From a virus, in the IMG/VR virus record IMGVR_UViG_3300025598_000023, positions 47,325 to 111,324 of that record: a DNA stretch of 64,000 nucleotides. One strand, written 5' to 3'. The translations under genes and the position numbers were made by a program. This document shows, in pieces, positions 44,162 to 63,100 of this stretch. A model generated the notes under the pieces. It worked only from the letters and a program-made list of their open reading frames with translations, did no database searches and was not told the origin of the DNA. How positions within the stretch are numbered: position 1 is the stretch's first letter; every line of letters begins with the position of its first letter.

Positions 44162-44218
44162 TTACATTTCCGTTGTATTAGAGTTACATGATATGGACTT
44201 GCCAGTGCCACAATTCCC

Positions 44219-44246: not shown

Positions 44247-44568
44247 CTACTTTTTTATCGTTATTTTCCAATAACTTATTAAAGTGATCGATTGCCGCTT
44301 GAAGTTTAGGAATATCTTCCCTAGCCACAAGCACATCATCCCAAACTAAATCTGCACCAAAAATATACTTTAGCGCAGCCCAAACTCGCTTGTAAAATGG
44401 ACGGTAATTTACAGCCTGAATATTAACAATAAAGTCTGGCGTATATGGCATTTCATTGCCCCAATCATACACTTGGACAACAATAGTATGTTCAGCACTA
44501 CTGCATTCACACGAAAGAAATACTTTTAGGTCGTCGTGCTTTACTGTAATATCTTCAATATTGCTCAT
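44233..44568 (-). CDS. hypothetical protein
   Basis: 111 residues. LKVFLSCECSSAEHTIVVQVYDW has a Cys pair in a strand region. A helical part with YKRVWAALKYIFGADLVWDDVL and DIPKLQAAIDHFNKLLE follows. A protein with the same sort of C..C strand and VWDDVL helix is common in aquatic phages from memory, function unknown. Its start is coupled to the clamp gene stop (TAATG). Confidence 0.55.
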   Translation of the reverse strand: MSNIEDITVKHDDLKVFLSCECSSAEHTIVVQVYDWGNEMPYTPDFIVNIQAVNYRPFYKRVWAALKYIFGADLVWDDVLVAREDIPKLQAAIDHFNKLLENNDKKVVDKP

Positions 44569-45296: not shown

Positions 45297-45316
45297 TGAT
45301 TTTTCCTTTGATTTTT

Positions 45317-45345
45317 AATATAACAAAATACGAGTTAGTTGTCAA
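45317..45345 (-). promoter_or_regulatory. sigma70-like promoter of the clamp gene
   Basis: On the minus strand: TTGACA (45345-45340) inside the methyltransferase 3' end, a 17-base spacer, TATATT (45322-45317), then AAAGGAAAA before the ATG at 45296. Confidence 0.7.
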
Positions 45346-46180: not shown

Positions 46181-46183
46181 ATC

Positions 46184-48850
46184 TTATTCCTCAAAATCAA
46201 ATAAATTAGTAAATGTATTGCTGATGTTTGTTGCGTTAGTAATATCCCAACCAAGAACATCAAGAAGATTTTCTACTTTTTGTGTTACAATAGTATCTTC
46301 CATTTCATCACTATCAAATGGCATTTCTTTAAACCATTTTGGAATACGAGTTTCATCTGTTGGATAACCAATGCTTGTAAGTCCAAGTGGATTATCTTTT
46401 AACTTACAAACAATAGTTTTCATACCGTCAACAATCTCAATACTGCGAGTATCGCTGTGCATTCTGCGAAGATTATTCCAATTAATCGCCGCACGAACGT
46501 GACCTGGCATATTTGCTTTGCCTTGTTTCTTTTCTAAATCGCCATAATAAGTTAGTTTATTAACGCGCTTTGGTGTGCCCTTTTCCCAACTTGGTAATTC
46601 TTTAAACTTTGTTTTAAAAGTGCGCACTTCTTCAATGATCTGCTCGCGTTCTGCACCGTCAAGAACTTTCTTCAAGATATCGGACAAGAAATCTTGTACA
46701 AGTTTAGGTGTATCGCTGCGTTTAAGGTCAAGACCCATAGCTTTAACTTTGCCAGTCTTGCCTTCAACATCAAGTCGCTTGCCTTCCAAATCAAAAATTA
46801 ACACAGCATAACGTTTTTTGGTAATAAACAGTCCTTTACTAGCAATAAGTTCACGACCACCTTTAATGATAGAACCAAGTTCTGGCGTAGTGTGAAATGC
46901 TTCATACATAAATTTTGGGAATGTCATATTGACTTGTTCACCAATACTGTCATAAAGCTGAATACAAATCTCTTTATTCCATTCCATGCGACCAGAAGCT
47001 ACATCATCTTTAATAACTGGCCAAGCACTAAAATACACAGAGTCAGTATCGCCATATATGATTGCTTTGCCAACGTGATCTGCTTCACCAGTGATAAGTT
47101 GATTAACGGTAGCATCCATATGTTTTGCAATTGTGCGACCGCATAAAGTGGTGCTTTGTCCAATGCGTTGGTCAAAGAAACGACAACCTGCGTTTAGAAT
47201 AGCACCATACAAACTGTTCAAGTTAATCTTTTTAACCAACTGACGTTTATCCCAGAAAGCAATTTCTTTTGGATCGGTTGCTTCTTTCTTTTTAGCTTGT
47301 AATTCTTTACGCTCACTATACCAACGTTCAAGCAAACTTGGCACAACGCCTTGTCGTTCAAGGTTAAAGATTGTGCCATTTGCACTTAACGCCCATGGTG
47401 CATAATTGTCAAAAATCATATCATATATTTGTGCAGCACTATAAACTTCACTGTTACCATTTTCCCAATCAATAGTAATTTCTGTTCCAATTTCACGGTT
47501 CATAACAGCACTATATTCTAAAGTTGCGAATAGACCTTCCCATGCGCCAGCAAATGATTTGCCTTCATCCATGCGTTGTTTAAGTAGTGCTTCTGTCATA
47601 ATAGGTCGTAACTGACCAACAACGGTCTCTGGACCCATATTAAGTGCACGAATTGTTGATGGATACAGCGAGTTAATATCAATAGCACCAATCCAATCAT
47701 TTAATCCTTTTTTGGGATAAGCAACATACGCACCAGCAACTTGGCTATTGACTTCTTCATCACGTGAACGGCGATTAGGAACTACCATACCACGACGATG
47801 TGCTTCGTTGATAATTGCTTGTTCTGTGACCGCAACCGCGCCCATTGTAGTTTGTAGCAACACAGTATTATCGTGCGCAATTTCATTTGCCAAATCAAGA
47901 AATCGTAGTTTTTTATCTAACTTATTGAGCAGTGCAACGTCTTGTCGTGAATACTGAATAAATGTTTCAAAGTCGCGGTTATATAACTGGTCAAGTGTGC
48001 CTTCATAAGCAGTCTTGCGTTCATTTAACTCATATTCACCAATAGCATCAAGACTATAACTATGGCGTTCTTCATATGTATATTTGCGATACAGTTCCAT
48101 ATAATCCATGTGAACACGACCAACCAAGTCATATGTTGAACTTGTCTTTCCATATTTTTCATATTCACGTACTTTTGGAAACTGGTCCCACAAGCAAAAA
48201 CGGCGGGTGTCATCTTTACTTAAAATGCGTGTTACACGATTGATAGTGTATGGAATATCAAAACCTTCACTGTTCCAACCACTTAACACATCTGCATCTT
48301 CGATAAGTTCAAGAAATGTTAGCAGCATTTCTCGTTCACTATCAAACATAAAAGTATTTTCAAAGATGCTTGCTACTTTATTCGCATCTTCCATAGACAT
48401 GGCACTTGGTGGCAGTGCTAATGTGATAAGTTGGTCTAACCAATCCAGATAAACTGTAATTGCAGTAATTTTTGTAAAGGGATCATCTGGTGTGCTGTAG
48501 CCTTTTTGCGGATCAAAATCCGTTTCAATATCGAAGAAGGCTGTTTGTAGCTGTGGCGAATCACTGCCAAGATAATTTTCTGCCAAACATCTAAAAATAG
48601 GATTGATATCGCTTTCAAATATTTGGTGTTTACCTTGTCGCAGATTTAGTTCCTTGCGGAAATCCTTACTACTGCGACAAGTTATACGGCGAACTGGAGT
48701 ATCAAATATGCTTTTGTGGTTGCCCTTTTCATCGCCGTAATAAAAAACATAATTTACAGGATATTCCTTATAAACACGTTTTCCATTTACACGCTCAACA
48801 ACATGAATACGCTCATGCTGTCTATCAATAATTGCATCTACATAACTCAT
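46184..48850 (-). CDS. 43: family B DNA polymerase (gp43-like)
   Basis: 888 residues from the ATG at 48850 behind TTGGAGAA; an upstream ATG at 48916 lacks a ribosome-binding site. The 3'-5' exonuclease has FFDIETDF (D107, E109) and a Y..QDV exo III-like segment. The polymerase has AIDINSLYPSTIRALN (motif A), KKINLNSLYGAILNAG (motif B) and IYGDTDSVYFS (motif C, DTD). The C-terminus has TNLFDFEE, a clamp-contact-like tail as in T4 gp43. It replicates the phage genome. Confidence 0.95.
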   Translation of the reverse strand: MSYVDAIIDRQHERIHVVERVNGKRVYKEYPVNYVFYYGDEKGNHKSIFDTPVRRITCRSSKDFRKELNLRQGKHQIFESDINPIFRCLAENYLGSDSPQLQTAFFDIETDFDPQKGYSTPDDPFTKITAITVYLDWLDQLITLALPPSAMSMEDANKVASIFENTFMFDSEREMLLTFLELIEDADVLSGWNSEGFDIPYTINRVTRILSKDDTRRFCLWDQFPKVREYEKYGKTSSTYDLVGRVHMDYMELYRKYTYEERHSYSLDAIGEYELNERKTAYEGTLDQLYNRDFETFIQYSRQDVALLNKLDKKLRFLDLANEIAHDNTVLLQTTMGAVAVTEQAIINEAHRRGMVVPNRRSRDEEVNSQVAGAYVAYPKKGLNDWIGAIDINSLYPSTIRALNMGPETVVGQLRPIMTEALLKQRMDEGKSFAGAWEGLFATLEYSAVMNREIGTEITIDWENGNSEVYSAAQIYDMIFDNYAPWALSANGTIFNLERQGVVPSLLERWYSERKELQAKKKEATDPKEIAFWDKRQLVKKINLNSLYGAILNAGCRFFDQRIGQSTTLCGRTIAKHMDATVNQLITGEADHVGKAIIYGDTDSVYFSAWPVIKDDVASGRMEWNKEICIQLYDSIGEQVNMTFPKFMYEAFHTTPELGSIIKGGRELIASKGLFITKKRYAVLIFDLEGKRLDVEGKTGKVKAMGLDLKRSDTPKLVQDFLSDILKKVLDGAEREQIIEEVRTFKTKFKELPSWEKGTPKRVNKLTYYGDLEKKQGKANMPGHVRAAINWNNLRRMHSDTRSIEIVDGMKTIVCKLKDNPLGLTSIGYPTDETRIPKWFKEMPFDSDEMEDTIVTQKVENLLDVLGWDITNATNISNTFTNLFDFEE

Positions 48851-48927
48851 TTTATTCTCCAAGTCACTTGTGGCTGACCAAAACCTTTCTACATGCACGT
48901 GTGGTGTGCGAACCATATATTAATTTA

Positions 48928-49194
48928 TTATACGGAATCTTTTAAATTATCCGTAGATTGCAAAATACTTTCGATGATATCAAGGTCTTCACGAGCCTTG
49001 TCATAGTCGCGCTTCATAGCCATCTTAACTGCCTTTTTAAGCAGATTTGGTTTAAGTTGCATTTCTTCTGCAATAGCAGCAATGGTATCATTCAATCCAC
49101 CTTGTAGCGTTTCAACTTCTGTTGTTACGCCAATTGCTTCGGTAATAAGTTGTTTAAGTTTTGCACGTTCTTCAGTGCTAAATGCTCTTGCCAT
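48928..49194 (-). CDS. dsbA: DsbA-like double-stranded DNA-binding protein
   Basis: 88 residues, close to the 89 of T4 DsbA. FSTEERAKLKQLITEAIGV, an acidic ETLQGGLNDTIAAIAEE helix, and MQLKPNLLKKAVKMAMKRDY match the form of DsbA homologues in cyanophages. T4 DsbA binds double-stranded DNA and stimulates late promoters. It lies just upstream of the polymerase gene. Confidence is limited by the short length. Confidence 0.7.
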   Translation of the reverse strand: MARAFSTEERAKLKQLITEAIGVTTEVETLQGGLNDTIAAIAEEMQLKPNLLKKAVKMAMKRDYDKAREDLDIIESILQSTDNLKDSV

Positions 49195-49206
49195 AGATTA
49201 GTCCTT

Positions 49207-49659
49207 TCATTTTGTTGTTACTATTGCTTTAAGTGCTTGATATTCATTATATGCATCACGCAGTTCTTTATCAATATTCATTTCCCATTTTTTACGAGCA
49301 GCTTCATATTTTTCATACGCATCTGCTAATATAGGAAACTCGCCGTGTAATTCATCGTTTTTTGTAATTAAACAAATTGCTTCGCATACATTTTCATAAA
49401 AGTTATCAAGATTTATTTTATTGTGATTTGTGTTAATAAGTGCATCGGCGTTATCTCGTGGTGTAATGTCCAAACTATTAGAAGTAATTGCAACCGTAGG
49501 AGATTGTTGAACACTCCAACCAGAGGTAGTTAATATAGAACCACTACCGCCACCGCCACCACCAACTGTATTGATTGTATATGTTGTAGTTGAACCTGTT
49601 GCACCAATTGCGGGTGCGTATGTAGTTTTAGACGGACTTTGGACGATGTTGACGGTCAT
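49207..49659 (-). CDS. T4-like protein with Gly-rich linker
   Basis: 150 residues. The start MTVNIVQSPSKTTYAPAIG, a strand, then a run of glycines (VGGGGGGSGS) and the C-terminal helical region with ADAYEKYEAARKKWEMNIDKEL resemble a small protein in cyanophage structural clusters. The start overlaps the upstream gene by 32 bases. A structural or chaperone role is possible; function unknown. Confidence 0.55.
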   Translation of the reverse strand: MTVNIVQSPSKTTYAPAIGATGSTTTYTINTVGGGGGGSGSILTTSGWSVQQSPTVAITSNSLDITPRDNADALINTNHNKINLDNFYENVCEAICLITKNDELHGEFPILADAYEKYEAARKKWEMNIDKELRDAYNEYQALKAIVTTK

Positions 49660-49981
49660 GCTTCAATTTAGCAGCAAAAGCATCAGGAGTCAATTTATAT
49701 TTCTTAATAAAAGCATTATGCAAATCTTTTGGATCAATTTGGAAAGCACCACAAATACTACGCATTACATCATCAATACTAACATAATCAATATGTTCCA
49801 TGCCATCTAAATTATCTGCAAGTCTTGCAACAGCATTGTCCATATTGGTGCTTTCTGCACTATCAATTATTTTATTATATTTCCAACGTGCAGCCATTAG
49901 TCCACGTGCACCAGCACTGATTGGATGACGACCTTGAATACCTACACTCATTGCTGCTTCAAGTATTTCTTTAATACGCAT
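49628..49981 (-). CDS. putative packaged internal protein with capsid-targeting-like N-terminus
   Basis: 117 residues. The N-terminus MRIKEILEA ends in ILE followed by Ala, like T4 capsid-targeting sequences cut by the gp21 protease after (I/L)xE. The rest is helical and basic (SAGARGLMAARWKYNKII, DLHNAFIKKYKLTPDAFAAKL). No ribosome-binding site is visible, and a GATAAATA late-type motif ends five bases before the ATG. Internal-protein role is inference. Confidence 0.55.
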   Translation of the reverse strand: MRIKEILEAAMSVGIQGRHPISAGARGLMAARWKYNKIIDSAESTNMDNAVARLADNLDGMEHIDYVSIDDVMRSICGAFQIDPKDLHNAFIKKYKLTPDAFAAKLKHDRQHRPKSV

Positions 49982-49985
49982 AAGA

Positions 49986-51083
49986 TTATTTATCGGTTAC
50001 TGACCACACTTCTGGTGGAAATAATATACTGCTATCAGTATTCCTGTAACTATCTAATTTCTTTAATCTTAAAATTGCTTGTTCAAGTTGTTTTTTGTTG
50101 CTTGGTTGTTGTAATTCATTTATAAGATAAGAAAAATTAGGAATGGTATTCAAGTCATCAATTAATTTTTCCTTGACAGATTCTGGTAAATTTCTTGCTG
50201 TATAATAAGATGGATTTATTACCAAGTTTGGAACAATTTCACAATTAAAGCGTTTTTTCAAAATTTCAAAATCTTCTTTTGTGTTATATGCGTTTAGTAA
50301 ACTATAAGTGTAGATTATATAAAGATTTGCATTTGGTATTAATTTTAGTCTATTAAAATTTTGTAAAGTAGTGTCCCAAGAAGCTGGCCATCGTATGGTT
50401 GCAAATCTTTCATAAACTCCATCAATACTAAATCCAATATTAACTGATTTAAATTTAATTAATTTGTTAACAATACTTTCATTTAATACTGTTCCATTAC
50501 TAAAAAAATGCAAATCAATTTGTTCACTAAAATTATTATCGACTGCCCATGATAGTATTTTTTCTACCTTTTTACTATACATGGGTTCACCACCATAAAT
50601 TGTAAGTTTCTCTATATTTTTCCAAATTTCGTTTAATAAAATTTGGTCAATATCGTTGTTAATTTTATTTTTAGATGGGTCATGTTCACCCATTCTTTTT
50701 AATTCGGCAGACCATCTTGTGCTGCTATCACTAAAACATGTGATACAAGCAATATTGCAATTATTATCAACTCTAATTTCTAAATTTTTTAATTGGAATT
50801 TATTTTCTAAAAATAATTCATAGTCAAAATCATCATAACTTGATTTAAAATTTAATCTATGACTTTTTGTATTTCCATCTTGTTCAGTTTTTTTGCAATT
50901 ATAACAACCAGGGTGCCATTTGTTATCTTTGATGTATTCTCTAACCTCTGAATTTGCAGTTTGAATATCAGTAAAATTTTTGTTAAAATTTGGTAAGAAG
51001 TAACAACATGGTTTTACTTTATTAGAATCAAACACCAAATCAGTGAATGGTCTTAAGCAAAACGTATCAGTAAATTGTGTCAT
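49986..51083 (-). CDS. twitch-type radical SAM protein 6
   Basis: 365 residues. N-terminal FCLRPF, KPCCYF and HPGCYNCKKTE are twitch-region cysteines as in the 15-22 kb array. CNIACITC (residues 109-116) is the SAM cluster and LTIYGGEPMY follows. It is more AT-rich than the array members and sits alone among putatively packaged proteins, with a four-base overlap upstream. Substrate unknown; proximity suggests one of the neighbouring proteins. Confidence 0.8.
   Translation of the reverse strand: MTQFTDTFCLRPFTDLVFDSNKVKPCCYFLPNFNKNFTDIQTANSEVREYIKDNKWHPGCYNCKKTEQDGNTKSHRLNFKSSYDDFDYELFLENKFQLKNLEIRVDNNCNIACITCFSDSSTRWSAELKRMGEHDPSKNKINNDIDQILLNEIWKNIEKLTIYGGEPMYSKKVEKILSWAVDNNFSEQIDLHFFSNGTVLNESIVNKLIKFKSVNIGFSIDGVYERFATIRWPASWDTTLQNFNRLKLIPNANLYIIYTYSLLNAYNTKEDFEILKKRFNCEIVPNLVINPSYYTARNLPESVKEKLIDDLNTIPNFSYLINELQQPSNKKQLEQAILRLKKLDSYRNTDSSILFPPEVWSVTDK
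49987..49994 (-). promoter_or_regulatory. T4-type late promoter next to a start codon
   Basis: GATAAATA on the minus strand, overlapping the upstream stop codon and ending five bases before the ATG at 49981. Transcription from it would start at about the ATG itself. Confidence 0.4.
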
Positions 51084-51289
51084 ACCTTGCCGTTTGGATT
51101 TAAAATTGGTGGACGACCAAGTTTATCAGTTTTATTGCCAAATTTAGCAGCTTGCTTTTGTGTTTCACCTGGATGAATATCAACAGTTAGCGCATTAGCA
51201 TAACGTGGGTCACGTGCCATCTTTTTATTAGCAGGCACTACGCCTACACCAGCCGCTTCATCAAGGTCAAATAATTCAGTTAGTAACAT
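51080..51289 (-). CDS. small protein with capsid-targeting-like N-terminus
   Basis: 69 residues. MLLTELFDLDEAAGVGVV has LDE followed by Ala, fitting a gp21-type site. The rest, PANKKMARDPRYANALTVDIHPGE and KLGRPPILNPNG, is basic and resembles small conserved proteins or C-terminal modules in aquatic T4-like phages. Likely packaged in the head; evidence is motif and context. Confidence 0.55.
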   Translation of the reverse strand: MLLTELFDLDEAAGVGVVPANKKMARDPRYANALTVDIHPGETQKQAAKFGNKTDKLGRPPILNPNGKV

Positions 51290-51294
51290 TCATA

Positions 51295-52236
51295 TCACCA
51301 CTTACGGCAAGACCAGTATCTTGCCTTTGTGCGTGGACCTGGATTTTCACAGTGATGTCTTGCACGGAAACTCTTGCGACGTTTTGGATTGCTTTTCTTA
51401 ATGCGCATATTAGGATCACCAAAGTTTACTTTCTTTACATTGCCAGTCTTTGGGTCTTTAACAAATACTTTAAATTTTTTTACATCGCCTCGCATTGGTT
51501 TACCAAGTGGAACTTTGCGACCATGATATTCTGCTTCTGATACCATTTCTTCATAAAGGTCATCCATAAAAAAACGAATCTCTCTGCCACCCTTATTCAA
51601 TACAATATCATCATCGTCTTCGGCAATATCCCAACCCATGTTGCTTAACATTTTGGATGCTTGAGCATGTTTTGCTTCATCACCATGCCACCACATTTTT
51701 GCTAATCGCTTTAAACTTTGTGGGTTGTCGTGCAGTGATACTACTTCACCTTCACTTACGTTACTTGAACTTGCAATAACACGGTCTGCTGCTTGGTTTA
51801 TTTCATCACGTGTTGCACGATATGGACTTACTTTAAGAACTGCAATTTGTTGGTATGCTGGTGTCGCTTCGTCATCAGTTTTGACCATTTTCTTTAATAA
51901 AACATGATCTACTTTACGACTATCACCATCATCATGTGTGTTTGTTGCAATAAAGTAATCATCACGATAATGCATTACATTATTGTTGCCACCAAAATCT
52001 CGTGCTCGCCAAAGTTTTGCTTCGGTTAAATTTTTGTTTTCAATTTCATTTAGACTTTCTAAAACTTTAAAAAGTTTTTCATCACCAAGTAGAGTAATGC
52101 TGTCACCAGTCATTTCCATAATTTCTGTATCTACCTGAAGTATATTACCAAATTCAAGATAAAAACCATCGCCAACTGTTGGACGATCTTCGCTAATGGC
52201 GGTAAGTTTTTCAATTAGGGAACGCATATCACTCAT
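51295..52236 (-). CDS. T4-like multi-module protein with basic Cys-containing C-terminus
   Basis: 313 residues. The N-terminal and middle parts (DGFYLEFGNILQVDTEIME, SLKRLAKMWWHGDEAKHAQA) are unrecognised. The C-terminal 80 residues carry AEYHGRKVPLGKPMRGD, FKVFVKDPKTGNVKKVNFGD and RRKSFRARHHC, ending PGPRTKARYWSCRKW, a module I recall from many T4-like cyanophages. Possible protease sites are NLTE followed by Ala at residue 73 and a SEAEYHG start of the last module. Late-type promoter and AAGAGGA precede it. Confidence 0.6.
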   Translation of the reverse strand: MSDMRSLIEKLTAISEDRPTVGDGFYLEFGNILQVDTEIMEMTGDSITLLGDEKLFKVLESLNEIENKNLTEAKLWRARDFGGNNNVMHYRDDYFIATNTHDDGDSRKVDHVLLKKMVKTDDEATPAYQQIAVLKVSPYRATRDEINQAADRVIASSSNVSEGEVVSLHDNPQSLKRLAKMWWHGDEAKHAQASKMLSNMGWDIAEDDDDIVLNKGGREIRFFMDDLYEEMVSEAEYHGRKVPLGKPMRGDVKKFKVFVKDPKTGNVKKVNFGDPNMRIKKSNPKRRKSFRARHHCENPGPRTKARYWSCRKW

Positions 52237-52252
52237 GATTAAATCCTCTTAT

Positions 52253-52260
52253 TATTTAGT
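52253..52260 (-). promoter_or_regulatory. T4-type late promoter (ACTAAATA)
   Basis: ACTAAATA on the minus strand, 16 bases before the ATG at 52236 with AAGAGGA between. It is the same octamer as the late elements at 9426 and 11042. Confidence 0.45.
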
Positions 52261-52266
52261 GGATTA

Positions 52267-52761
52267 TCACTTCTTTTTTGCGAATGTCTTTACATAAATT
52301 GGCTTCTTGCCGCTTCCGCCAGTATCTTTGCCACCACGACCAGCAGCATTTTGTGCTTTGCGCTTGCGGGTAACTGCACTCTTTTTCTGTGCAGCAGTCA
52401 TTCTACGTGCCTTCGCTGCTGGCACACATTTGGCATAACCACGCTTGCTGCCACTTGTTCCGCAAGGTGGATGTTTGCCTTTTACTTTTTTACCAATATT
52501 AACCCATTTATCAGTAAACCACTTATGAAGATTACTGCTCGCTTCGCCTAAAATTTCTGGAATAATTAAGTTACCACAATTTACACAATAATCAAGATTT
52601 TCTAAAATATTTTGTTCTGTAATTGGTTCGCAAATAATATCTGTGCTTTCGGTTTTCTTATTCTTGACACAGTTTGGATATGTCTTGCCAAACATTTTTT
52701 TGTTACCTTCTTTGTGGTAACCTTTCCAACATGCTTCGCCAAGAACATCTTCCATCTTCAT
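52267..52761 (-). CDS. putative packaged two-module basic protein
   Basis: 164 residues. MKMEDVLGEACWKGYHKEG shows LGE followed by Ala, then a short CWKGY...GKTYPNC module. A second LGE-Ala at EILGEASSNLHKWF starts another module with GKHPPCGTSGSKRGYAKCVPAA, resembling DUF5872-like basic domains. The C-terminus is Lys/Arg/Gly-rich. Two identical LGEA sites, each in front of a distinct module, suggest a polyprotein cut in the prohead. Its DNA-binding character is inferred from charge. Confidence 0.65.
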   Translation of the reverse strand: MKMEDVLGEACWKGYHKEGNKKMFGKTYPNCVKNKKTESTDIICEPITEQNILENLDYCVNCGNLIIPEILGEASSNLHKWFTDKWVNIGKKVKGKHPPCGTSGSKRGYAKCVPAAKARRMTAAQKKSAVTRKRKAQNAAGRGGKDTGGSGKKPIYVKTFAKKK

Positions 52762-53435
52762 TTGGATTTATTGCCCCAATTCTTTGCGCCTGCTTTGCGG
52801 CACTTAACTAGCGCACCACTTGCATATGCACTTGGCCATACTTTATAACGGCTCTTTACTTTATAATAGCAAGCATCTTTCTTTTCATCTACTCGTGATT
52901 CTGGTAACATTAAGCCACCACAATGTGGGCAACTTTCTTCTACGTTGTCATGTGCAGCAGCCCCAACGATTTCATCATAATTTTCCATGCAAAGATAATC
53001 GTGATGTTTAGACAATTCAATCATCTTTTCAGCAACATCATGCAAATCTTCGTCGGTCTTTGCATCTTCACGAGCATATTCCATCATACGAAGCAGTAAT
53101 GGAATATCCATACTGACTGTATCAGTGGCATCTGCTTCTGGAATCATTTCAACATTTTCAGTTGAAGAAATTTTAGGTTTACGAATAGCACTGCCTGGTA
53201 AAATTTTATCCATGGCTAAATCAATGCCAGCACGTTGTTTTTTAGTTTTGCCAGCGGGATTTGCAGTTAAAACATTTGGATTGCGAGCAAGACGTTTGCC
53301 AACATATGATTTTAATGTATTTGTTTTCAATTCGTCAACGTGTTTTGGCTTTTTACCGCGCTTCTTCATATTAATAGCAATCGCTGCTTGTTGCGCTGGA
53401 CTACTTGCTTCTAAAATAATATCTTTGATTTTCAT
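52758..53435 (-). CDS. putative packaged multi-module protein
   Basis: 225 residues. MKIKDIILEASSPAQQAAIA has ILE followed by Ala, then a basic module MKKRGKKPKHVDE. A further MIPEADATDTV site precedes a helical module (LLLRMMEYAREDAKTDEDLHD) and a Cys pair CPHCGG. The end has DACYYKVKSRYKVWPSAYAS and ALVKCRKAGAKNWG, a module I recall from other aquatic phages. Head-internal protein by analogy with T4 internal proteins; not proven. Confidence 0.6.
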   Translation of the reverse strand: MKIKDIILEASSPAQQAAIAINMKKRGKKPKHVDELKTNTLKSYVGKRLARNPNVLTANPAGKTKKQRAGIDLAMDKILPGSAIRKPKISSTENVEMIPEADATDTVSMDIPLLLRMMEYAREDAKTDEDLHDVAEKMIELSKHHDYLCMENYDEIVGAAAHDNVEESCPHCGGLMLPESRVDEKKDACYYKVKSRYKVWPSAYASGALVKCRKAGAKNWGNKSK

Positions 53436-54358
53436 TAGTCGCCACCTACCAATTTGTTACCTGGTGGACCTTTGTCTATGCCTTTCCAATATCCAGTAAA
53501 CTTTGGACCACTTGGATTCTTTACTGCATCACTCATTGCACTTTCAGTTTTTTTCTTGCGTTTCTTTTGGTTATAAGTGCCACCAAACAGTGAACCAATT
53601 TGACTGCGACCCATCATACCCATTGCACCAACGCCGCCAGCAATACCACCAGCACTACTTGCGCCAGCACTTGCACTTTCACCAATTACGTGAAAGCCAG
53701 CTTGCTGCTTGCTTTTAACTTGCGCACTTGGCACCATAACTGGAACGCCCTGAACATTACCATTGGTATCAAGTTTTGCCATTTTAACCATGCCAGGTGT
53801 CTTACTCATACCAGGTGCCTTTGGAGGTGTGCCTGGTTGTTGTTGAGTTTGTTGTGTTGGACTTGGATTCGGTGTTGAACCAGTTTGCATACCCATTTGC
53901 TGACCATCTTCATTCATTTCACTTGGGTAACGCATTTCATAATCAAGGTAATCAAAAACACTTTCAATATAATCTGCTGCACGTGTTAGTTTACGTTGGA
54001 CCCAACCTTCTAATCCCTGGTTTTCACCAACATTTTTCAACATGTCATGCAACATAAGTGATAGCTTTGCTGTGCGATAAAGTTCTTGACGTGCCATTTG
54101 AACTTCATGATCTGGATACTGATTATAAGTTTGTGGCATCAACTGTCCTGTTGGCTCATTGTTACCCCATCCACATTCTTCAATATTGTTGGCAGTTTCT
54201 GGTAATTTTACCATATATCTACCATCATAAACTTTCCATAGTGTTCCATTATAATGAGCAGCAAGTTTGTCTGCTTCATCATAGTTTGTAATTACTGGTC
54301 GACCATTTTGAGCTAAAACTTTACCATAAACTGAGCTATTATGAATTTCATATTTCAT
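53435..54358 (-). CDS. putative packaged or head-associated protein
   Basis: 307 residues. EVQMARQELYRTAKLSLMLHD and GLEGWVQRKLTRAADYIESV form a helical region. A Gln/Pro-rich linker follows, then a Gly/Ala/Met-rich part after VIGESASAGASSAGGIAGG, and a basic end (YNQKKRKKKTES, KFTGYWKGIDKGPPGN). IGE followed by Ser is another possible gp21-type site. It starts behind GAGGA and a CATAAATA late motif. It lacks an obvious N-terminal targeting peptide. Confidence 0.55.
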   Translation of the reverse strand: MKYEIHNSSVYGKVLAQNGRPVITNYDEADKLAAHYNGTLWKVYDGRYMVKLPETANNIEECGWGNNEPTGQLMPQTYNQYPDHEVQMARQELYRTAKLSLMLHDMLKNVGENQGLEGWVQRKLTRAADYIESVFDYLDYEMRYPSEMNEDGQQMGMQTGSTPNPSPTQQTQQQPGTPPKAPGMSKTPGMVKMAKLDTNGNVQGVPVMVPSAQVKSKQQAGFHVIGESASAGASSAGGIAGGVGAMGMMGRSQIGSLFGGTYNQKKRKKKTESAMSDAVKNPSGPKFTGYWKGIDKGPPGNKLVGGD

Positions 54359-54375
54359 GAAGATATCCTCTAAAT

Positions 54376-54383
54376 TATTTATG
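54376..54383 (-). promoter_or_regulatory. T4-type late promoter (CATAAATA)
   Basis: CATAAATA on the minus strand, 17 bases before the ATG at 54358 with GAGGA between; it matches the T4 late core at seven of eight positions. Confidence 0.5.
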
Positions 54384-54390
54384 AAATTTG

Positions 54391-54708
54391 TTACATACTA
54401 AATGCTAAGTTTTTAAACATAAAATTAATTTTTTTACCATTTTTTGGTAAATTAAAAGATAAATCGTCTATAAAAATTTTAGTCGGTCTGGCTGTTTTGG
54501 TTTTTAAATTATTAAATATTAAGTTATTTGTTTTGCTATCGTCTAATTTTAAACTAAAACAATCAAAAAATTTTTGGTTTTGTGTTAATTTTGGTAAAGC
54601 ACGTTCACACATAAGTTGACCATTTATAAAAATTCTATAAACTATTTCTTCGTCGCCATAGTCATAATTTTCTGGTTCAATCTTTAATTTAATTTCATAC
54701 TCACTCAT
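54391..54708 (-). CDS. hypothetical beta-rich protein
   Basis: 105 residues, AT-rich. VYRIFINGQLMCERALPKL, FDCFSLKLDDSKTNN and TKIFIDDLSFNL suggest a beta-sandwich, like small phage proteins with a y.i.in..l..er pattern that I recall near structural genes. It has some likeness to the protein at 35155. Starts eight bases inside the upstream gene. Function unknown. Confidence 0.5.
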   Translation of the reverse strand: MSEYEIKLKIEPENYDYGDEEIVYRIFINGQLMCERALPKLTQNQKFFDCFSLKLDDSKTNNLIFNNLKTKTARPTKIFIDDLSFNLPKNGKKINFMFKNLAFSM

Positions 54709-54979
54709 CTAATACTCGTTGAATCTCTTTCAATAATTTATCTTCTTGAAATTTAGCTTCACGATTCTTAGATTTTTTGATTTTGTTTATCTTTGCATTA
54801 AAACGGCGCAAGTCGCTACGAGTTAATTTTTTATTTTTCTTTGTAAGGAATTGTATTGCTTGACTTTTTATATTAGAAGTTTGTATATCTAAATTACTGT
54901 TTAGTTGATACTCTTCCCAAATTTGAACAATTGCATCCCATTGTGTTTGGGTGAGAGTGGTGTTGTTTTCGTCAAGCAT
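54701..54979 (-). CDS. hypothetical basic helical protein
   Basis: 92 residues. LTQTQWDAIVQIWEEYQLN is followed by a basic helix-rich part (FLTKKNKKLTRSDLRRFNAK, INKIKKSKNREAKFQEDKLL). Charge and helicity suggest nucleic-acid binding. No motif or family. It ends eight bases into the next gene. Confidence 0.5.
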   Translation of the reverse strand: MLDENNTTLTQTQWDAIVQIWEEYQLNSNLDIQTSNIKSQAIQFLTKKNKKLTRSDLRRFNAKINKIKKSKNREAKFQEDKLLKEIQRVLDE

Positions 54980-54992
54980 GTTACTCCCCTCA

Positions 54993-55505
54993 TTAATTAT
55001 ATCTCCCTAATTTTGCAAAACTAGAGAGTTCACGTGCTACACGTGTGTAGTCATGATCTTCGTATTTTATACCAATACCACCTGCACTACGCCAACTTGC
55101 AATATTTCTACCATAATCATCCACGAGGATACATGGATTACCCCCAAGTGTAGCAAACATAGCTTTGTTGTGTGTAAGTTCAATATGCTTTGGTGGCATA
55201 TCACTGAAATGCATGCCAACCCATGCTAGCTTACCAGATTCACTGCGTGGGTCACCAGTTAATGGTGTGCTGCAAATATAATAGCTACCAAACTCTTTTA
55301 TAACATGTGCAACAAGTTGTCGTGCATGTGGAAGTAGGGGTAGATCAACCCAAAACGTAGGATGATCTCGCACAAGTTGAAGTTTTGCTTCTGGATTGTC
55401 AATGTCTTTATAGTGGTCTTTGCCATCAAGTCTAGCCCACTCACCAAAAAAATCAGCAAGAACGCCGTCCATATCAAGGTAAACTCGGAACTTTTGGTGT
55501 GCCAT
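54993..55505 (-). CDS. HAD-family 5'(3')-deoxyribonucleotidase
   Basis: 170 residues. VYLDMDGVLADFFGEWARL is the HAD motif I (DxDGV), ICSTPLTGD supplies motif II, HNKAM the motif III lysine, and ILVDDYGRNI the motif IV acidic pair. This fits the 5'(3')-deoxyribonucleotidase (NT5C) family, which dephosphorylates dNMPs and could adjust nucleotide pools. There is no visible ribosome-binding site; a GATAAATA element ends four bases before the ATG. Confidence 0.75.
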   Translation of the reverse strand: MAHQKFRVYLDMDGVLADFFGEWARLDGKDHYKDIDNPEAKLQLVRDHPTFWVDLPLLPHARQLVAHVIKEFGSYYICSTPLTGDPRSESGKLAWVGMHFSDMPPKHIELTHNKAMFATLGGNPCILVDDYGRNIASWRSAGGIGIKYEDHDYTRVARELSSFAKLGRYN

Positions 55506-55509
55506 ACGA

Positions 55510-55517
55510 TATTTATC
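55510..55517 (-). promoter_or_regulatory. T4-type late promoter next to a start codon
   Basis: GATAAATA on the minus strand ends four bases before the ATG at 55505, so a transcript from it would begin at or near the start codon. Confidence 0.4.
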
Positions 55518-55535
55518 CCTATTTGAGCCTGATTT

Positions 55536-55563
55536 ATTATACCATAACCACTTGAATAGTCAA
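55536..55563 (-). promoter_or_regulatory. sigma70-like promoter of the deoxyribonucleotidase gene
   Basis: On the minus strand: TTGACT (55563-55558), a 16-base spacer and a perfect TATAAT (55541-55536). It is back to back with the plus-strand promoter starting at 55578. Confidence 0.65.
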
Positions 55564-55577
55564 GCCTAATTTTCCCC

Positions 55578-55606
55578 TTGACAGACTGGGTAATTGTGGT
55601 AATATA
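55578..55606 (+). promoter_or_regulatory. sigma70-like promoter of the toxin-antitoxin-like pair
   Basis: TTGACA (55578-55583), then TAATAT at 55600-55605 after 16 bases or AATATA after 17. The next gene starts at 55633 behind GCGGAG. Confidence 0.6.
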
Positions 55607-55609
55607 AGG

Positions 55610-55617
55610 TATAAATA
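55610..55617 (+). promoter_or_regulatory. perfect T4 late promoter (TATAAATA)
   Basis: TATAAATA, an exact match to the T4 late core, 15 bases before the ATG at 55633. It directly follows the sigma70-like -10 box, so this gene pair can be read both early and late. Confidence 0.6.
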
Positions 55618-55632
55618 TTAGCGGAGTTACCG

Positions 55633-55815
55633 ATGCGTATCAAGGAAGTTATTCCTACAAATGAGGATTTTTCAAGTCAAATTATGGCTGCTGATCCTGT
55701 AATTTCAGAAGAAGATACTGCTCGTATCCTTGCAGTTAAGGAAAGCGATTTCAGCCAACCCATGACTGGCGATGAACTCATTGAACATATGAAAACTGTT
55801 CTTGGGATGCAATAA
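55633..55815 (+). CDS. small protein, antitoxin-like partner
   Basis: 60 residues, acidic: MRIKEVIPTNEDFSSQIMAA, then SEEDTARILAVKESDFSQP and a C-terminal helix. Its stop overlaps the next ATG (TAATG). Size, acidity and position before a RelE-like gene suggest an antitoxin. However the N-terminus MRIKEVI resembles that of the packaged protein at 49628, so a head-internal protein is an alternative. No helix-turn-helix is visible. Confidence 0.5.
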   Translation: MRIKEVIPTNEDFSSQIMAADPVISEEDTARILAVKESDFSQPMTGDELIEHMKTVLGMQ

Positions 55816-56174
55816 TGGCAACAGTTTTTAGAACCTGTGCGTTATTTGATGAAACATTAAAAACACACGGTGCTGCGGTTCTAAAAGCGTTTGTTGATTT
55901 TAAGAAAACAAAAGAAATAAATGCCATGATGCCATACGGTAGCAAAGATCATCCGTATAGAGGCAATGGTCCGCTTGGTTTACATAAACCTAAACTCATA
56001 CATGCTGGTATGACTTTTGATATAAGTTTGATTTATAGTTTAAGCGGACAAAATCCACATGTTATAAATTTGTATGGTTTCTTTACCCACGACGAAAGTG
56101 GAACAGGAAATCCACCTAAATCTAAAATACAAAAATCTTTACTTACAAAAATTTCTAATCAACAGATGAAGTAA
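55815..56174 (+). CDS. RelE/YafQ-like toxin candidate
   Basis: 119 residues. KDHPYRGNGPLGLHKPKLIHAG is followed by FDISLIYSLSG and VINLYGFFTHDES. This resembles the RelE/YafQ fold, where a HPL.G...G...H segment precedes a LIY strand and a final G.H strand. Similar proteins are common in aquatic T4-like phages, from memory. Translation is coupled to the small acidic upstream gene. mRNA cleavage is inferred, not shown; catalytic residues are not conclusive. Confidence 0.5.
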   Translation: MATVFRTCALFDETLKTHGAAVLKAFVDFKKTKEINAMMPYGSKDHPYRGNGPLGLHKPKLIHAGMTFDISLIYSLSGQNPHVINLYGFFTHDESGTGNPPKSKIQKSLLTKISNQQMK

Positions 56175-56178
56175 TTCA

Positions 56179-56952
56179 TTATTTTTCGGCTTTTCTTTTT
56201 GCCCACCATGCCTTTATTCTGATACTCTGTTCTTCTGCATACTTTGTATCATTTTTTCTATTTTCAGAAAACTGTTTTCTTTTTTCTTTTCGTTCTGGTG
56301 TATTTGCCGCTTTTTTTTGTCTCTCAATTCTAATTTGTTTTTGCTCTTCGGTTTCATTTTGATAGTATTTTTTTATTTTTGCACTGCATTTTTCTGAAAA
56401 TTCTGCATTGTTTTTCTTTTTATTATTATTTTTTTGTGTTTTTTCTAACCATTGCTGGTCTTGTGATCTTTTTTGTGCAGCAAGAAGTATTTTTTCATAA
56501 TATTCTATATCTGTTTCATATTTTAATTTTATTGCGTTGCTTGTTTTAATTTTATTATTTTCATTAGAATAATATTCCGTTAACTTGTCTGATAGTTTTT
56601 TACTTCTTTTTGGATCATTATATATTTTTCTTTTTTCAAGGTCTGTTTTAAATTTATTTGTTGCGCCGCCATCTCCACCATTTGCAATATTCATACATAA
56701 AAAATTATCTTTTATTTTGTGTTCATTTATTACTATTGTTTCAAAAACATCCGCTTCTTTTTCATTATTACATATATGAATAGTTTCTCTTTCAAACTGT
56801 TCTATACCATATTTTTTTATAGCTCTACGTAATAAAAGACCACTTCCCAAATACCCATCAAATGCATGTGGATCATCTAATAAATTTAAATGTTTTCCAA
56901 TATAATATTTTCCGTTAATTTTATTTGTTGTTTTGTATATAATCCAAATCAT
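56179..56952 (-). CDS. GIY-YIG homing endonuclease
   Basis: 257 residues from the ATG at 56952 (a TTG at 56967 is the only earlier start). IIYKTTNKINGKYYIGKH contains the GIY-YIG-type signature, with GSGLLLRRAIKKYG and ICNNEKEADVFETIVINEH adding the conserved Arg and Glu positions. A long Lys/Glu/Asn-rich C-terminal half is a modular DNA-binding tail as in T4 Seg proteins. The DNA is very AT-rich. It probably spreads itself among related phages. Confidence 0.85.
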   Translation of the reverse strand: MIWIIYKTTNKINGKYYIGKHLNLLDDPHAFDGYLGSGLLLRRAIKKYGIEQFERETIHICNNEKEADVFETIVINEHKIKDNFLCMNIANGGDGGATNKFKTDLEKRKIYNDPKRSKKLSDKLTEYYSNENNKIKTSNAIKLKYETDIEYYEKILLAAQKRSQDQQWLEKTQKNNNKKKNNAEFSEKCSAKIKKYYQNETEEQKQIRIERQKKAANTPERKEKRKQFSENRKNDTKYAEEQSIRIKAWWAKRKAEK

Positions 56953-56956
56953 AAAG

Positions 56957-57127
56957 TTATTTATCAAAAAACTTTATTCGGCGTTCTACTTTTTTAACCC
57001 ATTCTTTGCTTGGATGACCACTACCACGATAATATTGCAGCACTTTTTTAGGGTTGGACTTGCTAACTAAAGCCCAACGACCCTTTACTTTTTTAAGCGT
57101 TTCACTTATAAACTCATGCGCTCGCAT
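56957..57127 (-). CDS. small packaged-type protein, 56 residues
   Basis: The ATG at 57127 lies behind AAAGGTGA, ten bases after the stop of the giant gene. The protein begins MRAHEFISETLKKVK and continues WALVSKSNPKKVLQYYRGSG with a basic end. HEFISE followed by Thr is close to T4 capsid-targeting peptides (..EFIxE). The WALVSK..P.KVL.YY core is a small conserved phage motif from memory. Its stop is close to the homing endonuclease start. Confidence 0.65.
   Translation of the reverse strand: MRAHEFISETLKKVKGRWALVSKSNPKKVLQYYRGSGHPSKEWVKKVERRIKFFDK
56958..56965 (-). promoter_or_regulatory. T4-type late promoter next to a start codon
   Basis: GATAAATA on the minus strand overlaps the stop of the 56-residue gene and ends five bases before the homing endonuclease ATG at 56952. 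Confidence 0.35.
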
Positions 57128-57138: not shown

Positions 57139-60100
57139 TTAAACTTCACGAATAAAATATATTCCTCGTTCATAACCATTTCTTAATGTATCATCAAGAC
57201 CTTGTTCTTTATAATATTGTAATAATAGTTCATATGCTTCTGTAGGTGTAGCCGCACCAACATCCATAATTGGTGAAGTGCCATTAAAAGTTGTGTACAA
57301 TCTAAACACCTTTGGTGCAGTAGGACTACCAATACGGTTTAGAATTTCATCATTTGGTTGTGGTTTTGGTTGTGGTTGTGGTTTTGGTTTTCTAACACCT
57401 GCTGCGTATTCTTGTGGTGTCCATAATTCAAAATCACCATGATTGTATTCTATGCTACGTGCTATTCTGTAATAATTTTGCTTTAGTTTTGTTATAGCAT
57501 CATCATAACTATTAGCACGAACACGCAAGTATACCCATCTGTTAGCTGTGCTTATTACATAAAACTCTTGTTTGCCTGAACCTATTACGTGAGCAAGATT
57601 TATATCTTGTTTGCCCAAATTAGGAACACCATAGCCAGTTCCAACACCTTCTAATCTGCGAGTACCACGATAGATTAGCATAGTGTTATCATGCGCTGCT
57701 GCATATTGTGTTGCAATTTCTATAACTTGTTGTAGCGTGTATTTTGCTGGATCAAACATACCAATTACATGGTCGTTGTAATCTTCAATACGATATGCAA
57801 ATGCTTCATATGTTAATTTGGCAGATGGTTTAAAATCTAATTTTTCTGCTTCAATCTTATTGATTTCTCTTGCAATAGCAGCAATACTACTATTAAAATA
57901 ATCATATGTGCTTAAATTTACAGCATTTCGCTGCTCTTTAGTCATATTAGGTATAAAATAATTTTCTATAGCACTTTCTGCTTCTTCTCTACTATATGTT
58001 TTAGGTAGCAACATTACTGTTTCTGGGTAGTATCTGCTTGTTCCTGTTGATAGAGTCATTGTTGCATGCCAAACAGAATAAAACGGCCAATTAAACACAT
58101 AATTGCTTGGGTTTTGATTACGTTCACGTAACCAATCATTTGCAAGTTTAACTATTTCATTTATTCCTTCGCCACGAACTTCTACAACACTATCGCCATC
58201 ATTTGATTCAATATTGGCTACAATTTTACCCTGACCAATTGGTTTTACAGGCTCACGTTTCTTTTGTGCAGCAGTTACTTGTGCAATCAATTCATCTTTG
58301 CTGATGCCACCAGCAACATATTTTGCAAAAATATCAACTGTGCTTGTAGGTTGTTTAATGCTATCTACAATAAGTTTATAAAACTTTTTAGCATATTCTT
58401 GTTTGCTATCTTCTGGGTCAGCAGCAGCAGCCATTGCACGAACATAACGCAACATAGTATTGCGTATTTCATCATATTGTTCAAAGTAATTGCCACCAGC
58501 ACTGCGGAACTCAATATAGTTAGACTTGATATTCACGCTTACATAACGGTCGCCACGTGTGCCACTAATAATTTTGTTTATTTCTTTATTAGTTTGGTCA
58601 AGTAAACCAACACGTGCATCATCCAATATTTGTGGTAGCGTCTTGCGGAAATCACGCATTTCTGTTGCTTTCTTGGCTTGGTCAAGCATACTTTTAGTCC
58701 AACGGCTGTTTAGACGACCAAAACGTTCTAATACATATTTGTCACCAAGCAACAACACAAGTTTAAGGTGATTTATGTTTTCCATAGTTTGTTCTGGAAT
58801 ACTAACGCCAATATGGAAACCAGTTGTTCTATTGGTATAATAACCATTACTTTTTGCCCATTTAAACACGGTTTGAAGCGCAGCAAGACCATCATCAAGC
58901 AGCATAGGTGGTGATACAAGTTCAATGCCACCATCTTCATCATCATTTGGACTATCAAGTGAACTATCTGGTTCAAATATCCAAGTGCTTTCATCACGTG
59001 ATGCATTATGATAGCCACTGCTTGCTCGTGCTTTATAACCAGTTGTGCGTCTAAAATCATCTACAACATCACCAATATCTGTTGTTGGTTCTCTACTGCT
59101 GGTATATGTATAATACGGCCATGACAGTGATTCACGAGTATTGCGATTTACCCAACGCATAAAGTCATACATATCATCAATGCTATTGCGACTTATGAAA
59201 TTACGCCAAACTTCATCTTCGTTGTTTTCCATCCAAGCGGTGCGAACATTATCTTTGGCATCATCAAGTTCACTTTCACTTGCTTCATCCATAGGCGTGT
59301 CGCCTAATTCTTCTTGAACCTCTGCTTTCCAATCTGTAGTATTTTCATAATTCTCGTCATAAAACTCATATTGGTATTCACTAAATGCTTCATAAAAAGA
59401 TTCTAATGCACTTTCAACCTCACGACGAGTATTGATTCCATTACCGCCAGTAAAGAAGTTCATAACATCACGTTGACGATCACGATAGGATGCACTGCTT
59501 GGAAACTCTTCGTTGGCATCCATATCCTCTTCTTCTTCCTCTTCGCCTTCTTCACCGCCAAGACCAGGAATATACATTTCGGTTTCAAAACCAACCTTCA
59601 TGCTCTTTGCAAATGGTGTATCAGCAAACTTTTCAAGAGATGTAGGACTCATATTGATTTCATTGAGGATACTTTCTTCAATGCTTTCGTTGCGAGGAGC
59701 AAGTTGAACTTCATAACTCTCATCACCAAGATGTTCGTTTGACCAAGATTCAGCATAGCGTTCAGCACCACGAGGTGATGCTGCACGGAACTCATGGACT
59801 ACACCGCCTCTGGCAATAATTTGATATTTTACACCTTCGGCAGCAGTGATATTAGTTTGCTGTCTTGGGATAGCATTGCCCGCAATATCATAACCACGAT
59901 CAATTTCTATTTGTGAATATTGGCGTGGTTGTTCTGGTTGTGGTCTTGGTTGAGGAATTGTTTGACCTTGTGTATCCCATAAATTATCATTGTTGGGTGA
60001 TCTTATAGCAATAGTTGCTAATGGAAGACCACGCTCTTGCGCAAATCTTTGTGCTGCTTGACTTGCTTGGTAAAAACTGCGTGCTTGTGTTGCTAATAAT

Positions 60101-63100
60101 TCTGTGCCATCGCTGCGATTTACAACAACATATGTTCCACCAACATTACCAGATTGTGTTTGTGCTTGTGTGCCAGCACCAGCAATAGGTGTCATTGTAT
60201 CATCATTTGCTAATGTCAAGTACCAAGAGTCTTGATTATAACCATATTCACTTGTTAATCGATTAGCCGTTTGAAGAGCATAATTTACATGTCTTTCACG
60301 GAACTGTGCTATTGCAGTATTATCGCTTGCTTTACGGATAACATATAATTCACCATTACCAGGTATTCCAACTGTGCGTGTTTCTTCACCAGTGGTAATA
60401 TTATAATAGTGTTTAACACCCATATAATCTTGGCGCAGTTCTACACGACCATTGGAAATATCGTGTTGATGCAACCAACGATCTGCTAAATCACGTGCAT
60501 CATTAAGATTATCCGCACGAATTTTTTTGAATTCTATATCTGTATTATAAAAAACTATTGTATATTCATTAGAACCGCTACCAAGTGCTTGTTCATCACC
60601 AGTAAAACTAATTGGCGGCAATGTTGGCACAAGATTACCTGTAACTGCACGTGTTTTTACACGAACCAATCGTGTATCGCCAAAACGATAACCATTATAA
60701 TCTGCCCAATCACGTGCGGTTTTATAAGCAGCGTATGGATCATTACTATAAAAAGTATGGACCGTTTTGCCAGCCACACGATCCATAATTTGATATTCTT
60801 CTGTGCTTGGATTTTTACCACGACTAATATCACGCTTTGCTTGGACATTGCGAATTTGTGATAGCAGTGCTGCTTTTGGTATAGTGCCGCTTACATATTG
60901 TGAGAAGTATTTGATTGTATCTGTATCTTCTTTTTTAGCACCGCTTGCTAAAAGTTTATAAAACTTTTTAGCATATTCTTCTTTTTCTGCTTCTGGATCA
61001 AGTGCTATGCTTAACGCATAAACCGTGCGATAAAGTGTATTGATAACCGCATCTAAATCCATATCTAACCAATTACCACCAGGACTGCGTATTTCTATAC
61101 GATTATCTTTGGTGTTGATACTTGTAAACTTGTCAGTATATGTATCATGGATAATTTTACTTACTGTGCGATTTAAGTTAGAACGCATAAGTGATAATGC
61201 TTGTTCTGCTTTGGTAGGATCACGCTTAATAACATTTTCAATATTATCAAGTGCGCTCTTTGTATAGGTATTACCCAAACGACCAAAAGTATCTAATACA
61301 TACTTGTCGCCTAAAAATAATGCCATCTTTACATAATCAAGATTTTGTAAATTATAACCTGGTAAACTTACATTCATATGCAAGCCAGTAGTTCTGTTGG
61401 TATAGGCATTACCTTCTTTTGCCCATGCTGCTACTTTCTTAATAACATCAACCATATCAGGTATTTTAAGTGCTGGTGCAACAAACTCCCAACCTTCACC
61501 GCCACGACCACTACTTGCGTGTAGACTGCTATCAGGTTCTACTTTAAAGTATCCAGCTTTTTGGGCTTGTGCGTGATAACCGCCGCTAACTTGAACTGGA
61601 TAACCAACTGCCTGTCTAAAACTTTCTGCTGGTGGACCATTGCCTCTTGATGGACGATTATCATAATCTGGTTCTGTCCAATATGGCCAATTTAAATCAT
61701 AATTATTTGAAAAATTACTAAAATAACTACCGCCAGTAGTATCATCAAGAAAATCTTCTATTGGATCGCCATTTTCTTCATAATTTTCAAGCCAATCATC
61801 ATAATGTGATTTTTTAAATGCAGCATATGTATCTAGCGGTGGCAATTCAGGAAATAGTTCAGTTTGGTTTGCAATATCACGACCATATGTTTTGTCTAAC
61901 CATTGTTGATATCGTGTATCGGTTTGGCCGCTTTCAGGACTGTTAGCCCATGTATCAAACCTAATAGGCAACCATTCATCATAGTCTTCTCTTGCTCTTT
62001 CCAATGCAGATCGAACATCGCGGCGACTATTATGATCGCCATAGAAGAAATCCATGATTTCACGTTCAAAATCTTGCCAATCACTTGCCCTTACGTAGCC
62101 ATCATAACCAGCATAGTCTGGTTCGCTTTCAAAGTCCTCATATGGATCATAATCATCATCATCCGCATCTTCAAACTCGGTAACGATAAGTTCAAACTCT
62201 AAACCAGCCTTTGCAAGTGGTAATTTATCAACTGCACTTTTAAGCGCACTTGGACTCATATTCACTTCATTAAGTAGTTCTTCGGTAATTATATTGCTAT
62301 CACCTACTTCAATACCTTCAAGCCATGGAATCTTTGGACTGCTTGGTTCACCCATCATATGTTTATCCCAAGGAAATACACCAGTTTTACGGTCGGTTAG
62401 CACAGCACCGCCTCCAACAGTTCCTAAAATACTATTTGCATGTTCAATTTTTTGTTCTGGACCAAACTTCTTAATGAATTTTGCTTTGTCTTTTGGCATT
62501 TCGTAGTCCAGTGAAATTTGGTTATCAATTTTCCCACTCTCATCAGTTATTACATCAACTGCAATATGCTTGAATCCAAGTGCAGTTTGTGCATATACAC
62601 GATACATCTTTTTAAGATCATCCAAGAAACCTTGAACAAAAAATGTGAGAGTTGCTTTTGCAAAACGCACATATCCAAGTTTAAATGCTTCTTCATAACC
62701 ATCAATGTTTTTACTATAAAGCCACCCCAGATGTTCTTCTTTCGTAACATAAACAACTTTACGATCAGGCAATATCCAACCATGTGTTTCATTTGGATCA
62801 AGTGCTTCTTCAACACTTTCTTTCTGCTGTGCTTCTGCATCCCACTTCTTGTGCAAGAATGTCAGTAAACCCTTTACATCATTGGCACCAATCTTGCGCA
62901 TAGCAGCGATAATTTTAGTTGCCGCTTCATAACCACTGTTTCCTGGTTTACGAGCATTGGTAATTTCATTGCGTAGTCCAAGGTCATCAGCAAACTGACC
63001 ACCATTCCAATAGGTCAAACTATAACGCAGTTTATTTGCTTCTTTGGATAACTCACTGCGGCTCTTCTTAAAGATGAGTTCTAACCAAGGTTCAAGATAT

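Follow-up and report, generated by a model that had tools for sequence, protein, structure and literature searches.

The genes at positions 49,628-57,127, mostly on the minus strand, of a 64,000-nucleotide stretch of virus DNA (the window; positions 47,325-111,324 of the 111,324-base IMG/VR record IMGVR_UViG_3300025598_000023, with features given in window positions) very probably encode head-packaged proteins and polyproteins that carry a T4-style N-terminal targeting peptide and are cut by the prohead protease. The indications come from short N-terminal peptides ending in (I/L)xE, from Glu-specific sites at the junctions between small shuffled modules, from an S77 (gp21-type) prohead protease in the same record, and from a module-bearing relative found in purified virions. 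We also lean, with less assurance, towards the broader view that T4-like phages of water bacteria hold a shuffled library of head-packaged polyproteins, in which modules are swapped exactly at prohead-protease sites, one protease both matures the shell and frees many ejected effectors and DNA-bound proteins, and a large share of the ejected proteome could be recognised from sequence alone by a hydrophobic-x-Glu ahead of each module.

Tagged genes and internal sites

The genes and modules bearing sites are listed below, with a slash marking the putative cut and CTS-like denoting a candidate capsid-targeting sequence (CTS).

49628-49981, minus strand: CTS-like MRIKEILE/A and a 109-amino-acid product, part of which matches phrog_10346 (function unknown)
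51080-51289, minus strand: CTS-like MLLTELFDLDE/A and a 58-amino-acid product, charge +6
51295-52236, minus strand: 313-amino-acid protein with LIE/K at residue 9 and internal LTE/A, VSE/G and VSE/A
51298-51534, minus strand: module D, residues 235-313 of 51295-52236, charge +20, phrog_7595, behind VSE/A
52267-52761, minus strand: CTS-like MKMEDVLGE/A, module B (about 52654-52731), then ILGE/A
52270-52542, minus strand: module C, residues 74-164 of 52267-52761, charge +24, phrog_23735, behind LGE/A
52758-53435, minus strand: CTS-like MKIKDIILE/A, module F (SSPAQQAAIA), IPE/A, module G (TDTVSMDIPLLL), then VDE/K
52761-52883, minus strand: module A, residues 185-225 of 52758-53435, charge +11, KKDACYYKVKSRYKVWPSAYASGALVKCRK, behind VDE/K; phrog_727 and phrog_38880
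53435-54358, minus strand: 307-amino-acid protein without N-terminal site; internal IGE/S, then a C-terminal piece of charge +8
56957-57127, minus strand: MRAHEFISE/T and a 47-amino-acid product, charge +12

The five N-termini singled out by the first-pass annotation are all present, all on the minus strand, with Glu at residue 8-11, a peptide of the size expected of a T4-type CTS (7-20 amino acids), and MRAHEFISE/T is close to the T4 sequence MKTYQEFIAE. The tag form M[KR]xxEIxE/A is kept in relatives of 49628-49981 at 71-78% identity. When the N-terminal motif was scored as hydrophobic-x-Glu followed by A, S, G, T or N, with Glu at residue 6-15, it occurred in 6/15 genes of 49207-57127 versus 1/79 in the rest of the 111-kb record (Fisher p=3.9e-5), a grouping set by the finding rather than blind since this test came after the ungrouped one, and one of the six sites (at 55815, MATVFRTCALFDE) is probably due to chance. 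The ungrouped whole-proteome test was marginal (10/97, p=0.09), most of the signal coming from this region and from the head genes. Seven genes within the cassette proposed at 49628-57127 do not belong to it; no convincing site was found at 49986-51083 (radical SAM), 54391-54708, 54701-54979, 54993-55505, 55633-55815, 55815-56174 or 56179-56952.

The internal sites proposed earlier were likewise recovered, as LGE/ASS, IPE/ADA, LTE/AKL and IGE/SAS, and several of these sites are followed by basic modules. Predicted mature pieces carry charges of +3 to +24, that is, they would be small basic products, and in silico cutting at the sites yields basic and acidic pieces, with several linkers at -6 to -8. 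Across 155 module-bearing proteins, charge was separated better at the sites than in any of 200 draws of random Glu residues from those proteins. Modules A and B account for matches to phrog_727 (E=1.5e-22 for 52758-53435 and 3.5e-10 for 52267-52761), and a DHEV[EQ]MA segment of 53435-54358 is common to other module-bearing loci. Family searches gave no match for 51080-51289, the region's proteins gave chance matches only against NCBIfam, and no named T4 internal-protein family (IPI, IPII, IPIII) appeared among PHROGs, Pfam and NCBIfam matches, the T4 proteins themselves not being directly compared. No whole-region DNA match was found in the phage collection.

Head genes and prohead protease

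Outside the window, the record contains a T4-type head cluster of portal, S77 prohead protease, scaffold-like gene and gp23-like major capsid protein (phrog_138, E=1e-98), and a gp21-like protease had been predicted there.

G000:C1:8078-8527, outside the window: S77 (gp21-type) prohead protease, PF03420 E=2.1e-27 (over the cut-off), phrog_207 E=4e-59

All three head genes inspected (capsid, scaffold and protease) have an N-terminal hydrophobic-x-Glu site (MSQELIE/S, MFEALKPLLE/S and MNNLLIE/N). The LIE-7 of this protease resembles an LIE-9 described close to the N-terminus of T4 gp21 (PMC9026906), and by alignment VLE/N and LAE/N in the capsid protein lie close to the start of mature T4 gp23.

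Site motif and module shuffling in relatives

About 160 related loci were gathered from three scans of viral contigs and picked by module matches. The modules recur in varying order, and the site moves with the module. Module F (SSPAQQAAIAINMKKRGKKPKH) follows IILE/A at an N-terminus and TIQE/A, IVKE/A or LLRE/A inside other proteins, while module G stands inside proteins after IPE/A or VME/A and at the N-terminus directly after MRIGQITNE/A or MRIRQIVSE/A. A hydrophobic-x-Glu within 12 residues before the module occurs in 217 of 235 distinct upstream sequences (92%), compared with 42% of shuffled windows and 20% of random windows from the same proteins. When Asp was scored instead of Glu, the share fell to 16%, equal to shuffled sequence, so that a composition artefact could be rejected as the source of the motif. 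The site is thus Glu-specific, matching the need of gp21, which in T4 cuts after L/I-X-E and whose processing of IPIII is blocked by Asp for Glu (PMC9026906). Around the last Glu before the module (196 distinct 8-mers), P3 is hydrophobic in 86% versus a background of 20%, P2 and P5 show no enrichment, and the Glu is followed mostly by Ala, Lys or Asn.

The N-terminal tag was found in 109 of 299 proteins starting with M[KR] versus 27 of 848 internal M[KR] positions in the same loci, an excess of about 11-fold, although 109/299 is not a whole-genome rate because the loci were chosen for nearby modules. Many of these tags are near the T4 MKTYQEFIAE and stand before unrelated proteins (MRASEFITE, MRAKEFITE, MRAHEFIVE, MKPTEFIVE and MKTFKQFMSE).

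Protease co-occurrence and free-standing modules

In podo- and siphoviruses, the modules are mostly whole small proteins that begin at the module, such as Kolga gp56 (MAKYQGRTVKL...), HTVC115P gp68 (MAKSPAWQRKEG...), CRP-902 gp70 and HTVC203P gp23. Module D stands free in Kolga gp56, HTVC111P gp26 and CRP-901 gp67, module C in HTVC027P gp50 and HTVC203P gp23, and module A in CRP-902 gp70. An S77 protease is present in 0/16 records with mostly free-standing modules and in 11/11 tested records with modules behind sites, and all five viral-contig records over 150 kb have it. This split supports a function but does not prove it, since it also follows phage lineage. An exception to the free-standing pattern is the Roseobacter phage CRP-6, which has no S77: in its gp55 (L195:989-1678), module D is joined to a prohead serine protease of XkdF type (PF14550, E=7e-18) and may there reach the prohead as part of that protease.

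Stand-alone modules A (L197:1480-1650) and C (L180:1486-1749) weakly match Pfam DUF5872, and a stand-alone module E (L185:2010-2261) matches DUF6321. DUF5872 and DUF5754 proteins are listed for an algal giant virus (PMC12085832), and viruses of eukaryotes may have the modules as well.

Virion evidence from relatives

The cyanophage protein S-CREM2 gp160 (128,342-129,235) consists of modules C, B and A, preceded by KLSE/A, LEE/K and ISE/G, and mass spectrometry of CsCl-purified virions detected 7 unique peptides from it, at 13.1% coverage (PMC10665884). In S-P4 and S-SCSM1, relatives carry annotations as structural or virion proteins, and S-SCSM1 ORF29 is a reported virion protein. A T4-pattern tag (F7, hydrophobic 8, E10) was found in 5 of 47 S-CREM2 virion proteins and in 0 of 161 others (p=5e-4, partly post hoc because the T4 pattern was applied after the S-CREM2 tags had been inspected), and the five include a SAM hydrolase, an APH-like kinase and a cytidylyltransferase (MKDFDSFLEE, VKRFDAFLTE, MKNFSSFLTE). 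A first test on S-CREM2, with P1' limited to A, S, G, T or N and self-called starts, gave no association (2/51 versus 8/157) because tags followed by D, E, Q or F were missed; when the test was redone with annotated starts and any P1', p was 0.007 for non-tail virion proteins under a looser rule. A tag-like RFASFMAE/AA is present at residue 25 of S-CREM2 gp12 (OR473000 7704-10313, minus strand), which is reported from virions and carries a Cas9/Csn1-like annotation.

Giant gene and ADP-ribosyltransferase-fold module

The same design extends beyond the cassette into the adjoining gene.

57139-64000, minus strand: giant polyprotein of at least 2277 amino acids (the frame is still open at the contig end), with a HiPIP-like segment, an ADP-ribosyltransferase (ART)-fold domain and amidoligase-like regions
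63136-63666, minus strand: ART-fold module, behind ELDE/A

The module at 63136-63666 is predicted to have an ADP-ribosyltransferase fold. An AlphaFold2 model from nine sequences reached a pLDDT of 83.5 (one from a single sequence, at 34.6, was useless), and its closest solved folds were Tpt1 (Z 11.4) and DarT (Z 9-10). H8, S48-x-T50-R51 and E97-x-E99-D-R are invariant in the nine sequences. Profile searches against PDB sequences and Pfam gave nothing convincing and no sequence-level match. Distant relatives at about 30-35% identity, annotated as hypothetical, were found by tblastn in jumbo phages of Dickeya, Pseudomonas, Vibrio and others.

In relatives, the ART module follows SLDE/A, SQIDE/A or SQLYE/A, and whole modules are inserted at such junctions. 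Two large phages (L122 and L147) have the module alone behind a tag, MRANEFLIE/RATSVVFHYT; like modules F and G, the ART module can thus stand behind either a CTS or an internal site. Read by eye, relatives of the giant gene also contain ParB-like and nucleotidyltransferase-like segments, and a cytidylyltransferase-like segment is fused in two of them (L201 and L206). Cytidylyltransferase-like enzymes have been reported in virions of S-SCSM1 and of S-CREM2 (for the latter, PMC10665884).

Proposed mechanism and alternative explanations

It is reasonable to suggest that the N-terminal peptide (8-11 amino acids, ending in (I/L)xE) could serve as a capsid-targeting sequence that draws the protein into the prohead core, and in T4 10 amino acids of IPIII are enough for head entry (PMC9026906). 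The S77 prohead protease would then cut after Glu at the N-terminal site and at the internal (L/I/V)xE sites between modules. Small basic modules would be freed in this way, as would enzyme domains of the giant-gene product, the ART-fold domain among them. The acidic linkers might be lost or kept as small peptides, the basic modules would probably remain with the packaged DNA, and the cargo could be ejected with the DNA into the next host, where each module would presumably have its role. The first-pass annotation had described a store of head-packaged, protease-released small proteins, and this picture is supported by the protease, the Glu-specific boundary sites, the co-occurrence and the presence of gp160 in virions, but it was incomplete in that the modules are units of shuffled polyproteins and not only small tagged proteins, and in that it stopped short of 57139-64000.

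Several points weigh against this interpretation. No cut N-terminus has been seen, at the 13.1% coverage published for gp160, and gp160 is without an N-terminal CTS and therefore would enter the head by another route. Virion presence is known for relatives, and we infer packaging and cutting in this uncultured phage. In S-CREM2, the contrast between virion proteins and the rest is only moderate under a broader motif (p=0.007 to 0.05). The association with the protease runs along the division between T4-like and other phages and could reflect lineage, and the p-values are overstated because the relatives are not independent and the loci were chosen by module matches.

Among the alternatives, the one that deserves most attention, though we consider it rather unlikely, is that the N-terminal peptide is a head-entry tag that is cut, with the internal sites being mere linkers and the proteins acting as uncut multi-domain proteins. 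T4 internal proteins and Alt are indeed cut near their ends (PMC9026906), and LxE is frequent in acidic stretches, as its presence in 42% of shuffled windows indicates. Nevertheless, the internal junctions share the Glu-specific motif of the N-termini with no Asp counterpart, shuffled modules keep it, phages that lack the protease have these modules as free proteins, and gp21 cuts T4 core proteins into several fragments (PMC9026906). There is also a slim chance that the proteins belong to virion structures other than the head interior (neck, tail or decoration), with LxE cut by another Glu-specific protease or left uncut, given that cyanophage relatives sit among neck, sheath-stabiliser and terminase genes and that mass spectrometry of whole virions does not locate a protein. 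Such a location fits poorly with a tag that matches the head-entry peptide of T4 and is carried in S-CREM2 by non-tail enzymes of the virion, with the fusion of module D to the prohead protease of CRP-6, and with an S77 presence that tracks the sites. Least credible of all is that the motif is a roleless by-product of acidic, helical linkers and N-termini. The linkers are indeed acidic and Glu-rich and the ungrouped proteome test was marginal, but there is no Asp excess at the same places, P3 alone is hydrophobic, and N-terminal tags far exceed internal M[KR] sites.

Comparison with known systems and implications

Head-packaged polyproteins cut by the prohead protease would share with T4 IPI-IPIII, which have a CTS cut by gp21, the short N-terminal peptide ending in (I/L)xE, the small basic product and the S77 protease. 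Unlike these, several of the present proteins consist of modules strung together, with sites inside the protein, and the modules, which have no family match to T4 internal proteins, occur in protease-lacking phages too. The parallel to T4 Alt, a head-packaged ADP-ribosyltransferase, is the ART-fold domain behind a CTS-like or LDE/A site, with L122 and L147 reduced to tag and ART. The Alt/VIP2 clade, however, is defined by an Arg-Ser-Glu active site with Arg at the first position (PMC5512222), where all nine sequences here have His, and the ART domain of the window is embedded in a giant polyprotein. Polyvalent phage proteins (Iyer et al. 2017, PMC5512222) are likewise large and combine unrelated domains, ART among them, with packaging and injection predicted, and the giant gene similarly joins HiPIP-like, ART-fold and amidoligase-like domains. 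Their release was proposed to depend on embedded peptidase domains, whereas here we propose the head protease acting in trans; family searches found no match to an embedded peptidase domain in the giant gene, which is cut off at the contig end.

The cyanophage T4-GC119/Syn9 gp114 family (phrog_727, which Syn9 gp114 matches at 2e-186) and S-CREM2 gp160 have in common with the present proteins the modules A, B and C (and E), the placing of sites ahead of modules, and an origin in T4-like phages with S77, but differ in module order and number; most are without an N-terminal tag, and a function has never been assigned to them. The phiKZ and SPN3US ejection proteins are also head proteins cut after Glu by an S77-related protease and ejected with the DNA, although their propeptides are mostly longer than 100 amino acids and they are cut at S/A/G-x-E or A-x-E (PMC5694885).

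Neither the T4 tag-and-cut system nor the injection of multi-domain proteins is new. Our search of the cyanophage literature, in which the Syn9 and S-PM2 virion proteome papers were not covered, found no description of the two combined, as polyproteins of shuffled modules split by prohead-protease sites. Most genes of lake and sea T4-like phages are labelled "unknown". If the present interpretation is true, a sequence rule would mark packaged, protease-released cargo and many unknown genes would become testable ejected proteins, the head protease would be used for polyprotein processing, and the occurrence of the same small modules as free genes in phages without the protease would be explained.

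Other features of the window

The window contains at least eight radical-SAM genes or near-threshold matches, located at 16433-22584 (plus strand), 27848-29221, 35561-37018 and 49986-51083 (all minus strand). Five are in a row on the plus strand and several have SPASM domains, an unusual number for a phage. An apparent single open frame of about 4,660 codons (record positions 39,456-53,453) enters the window at its first base and occupies positions 1-6129 on the plus strand.

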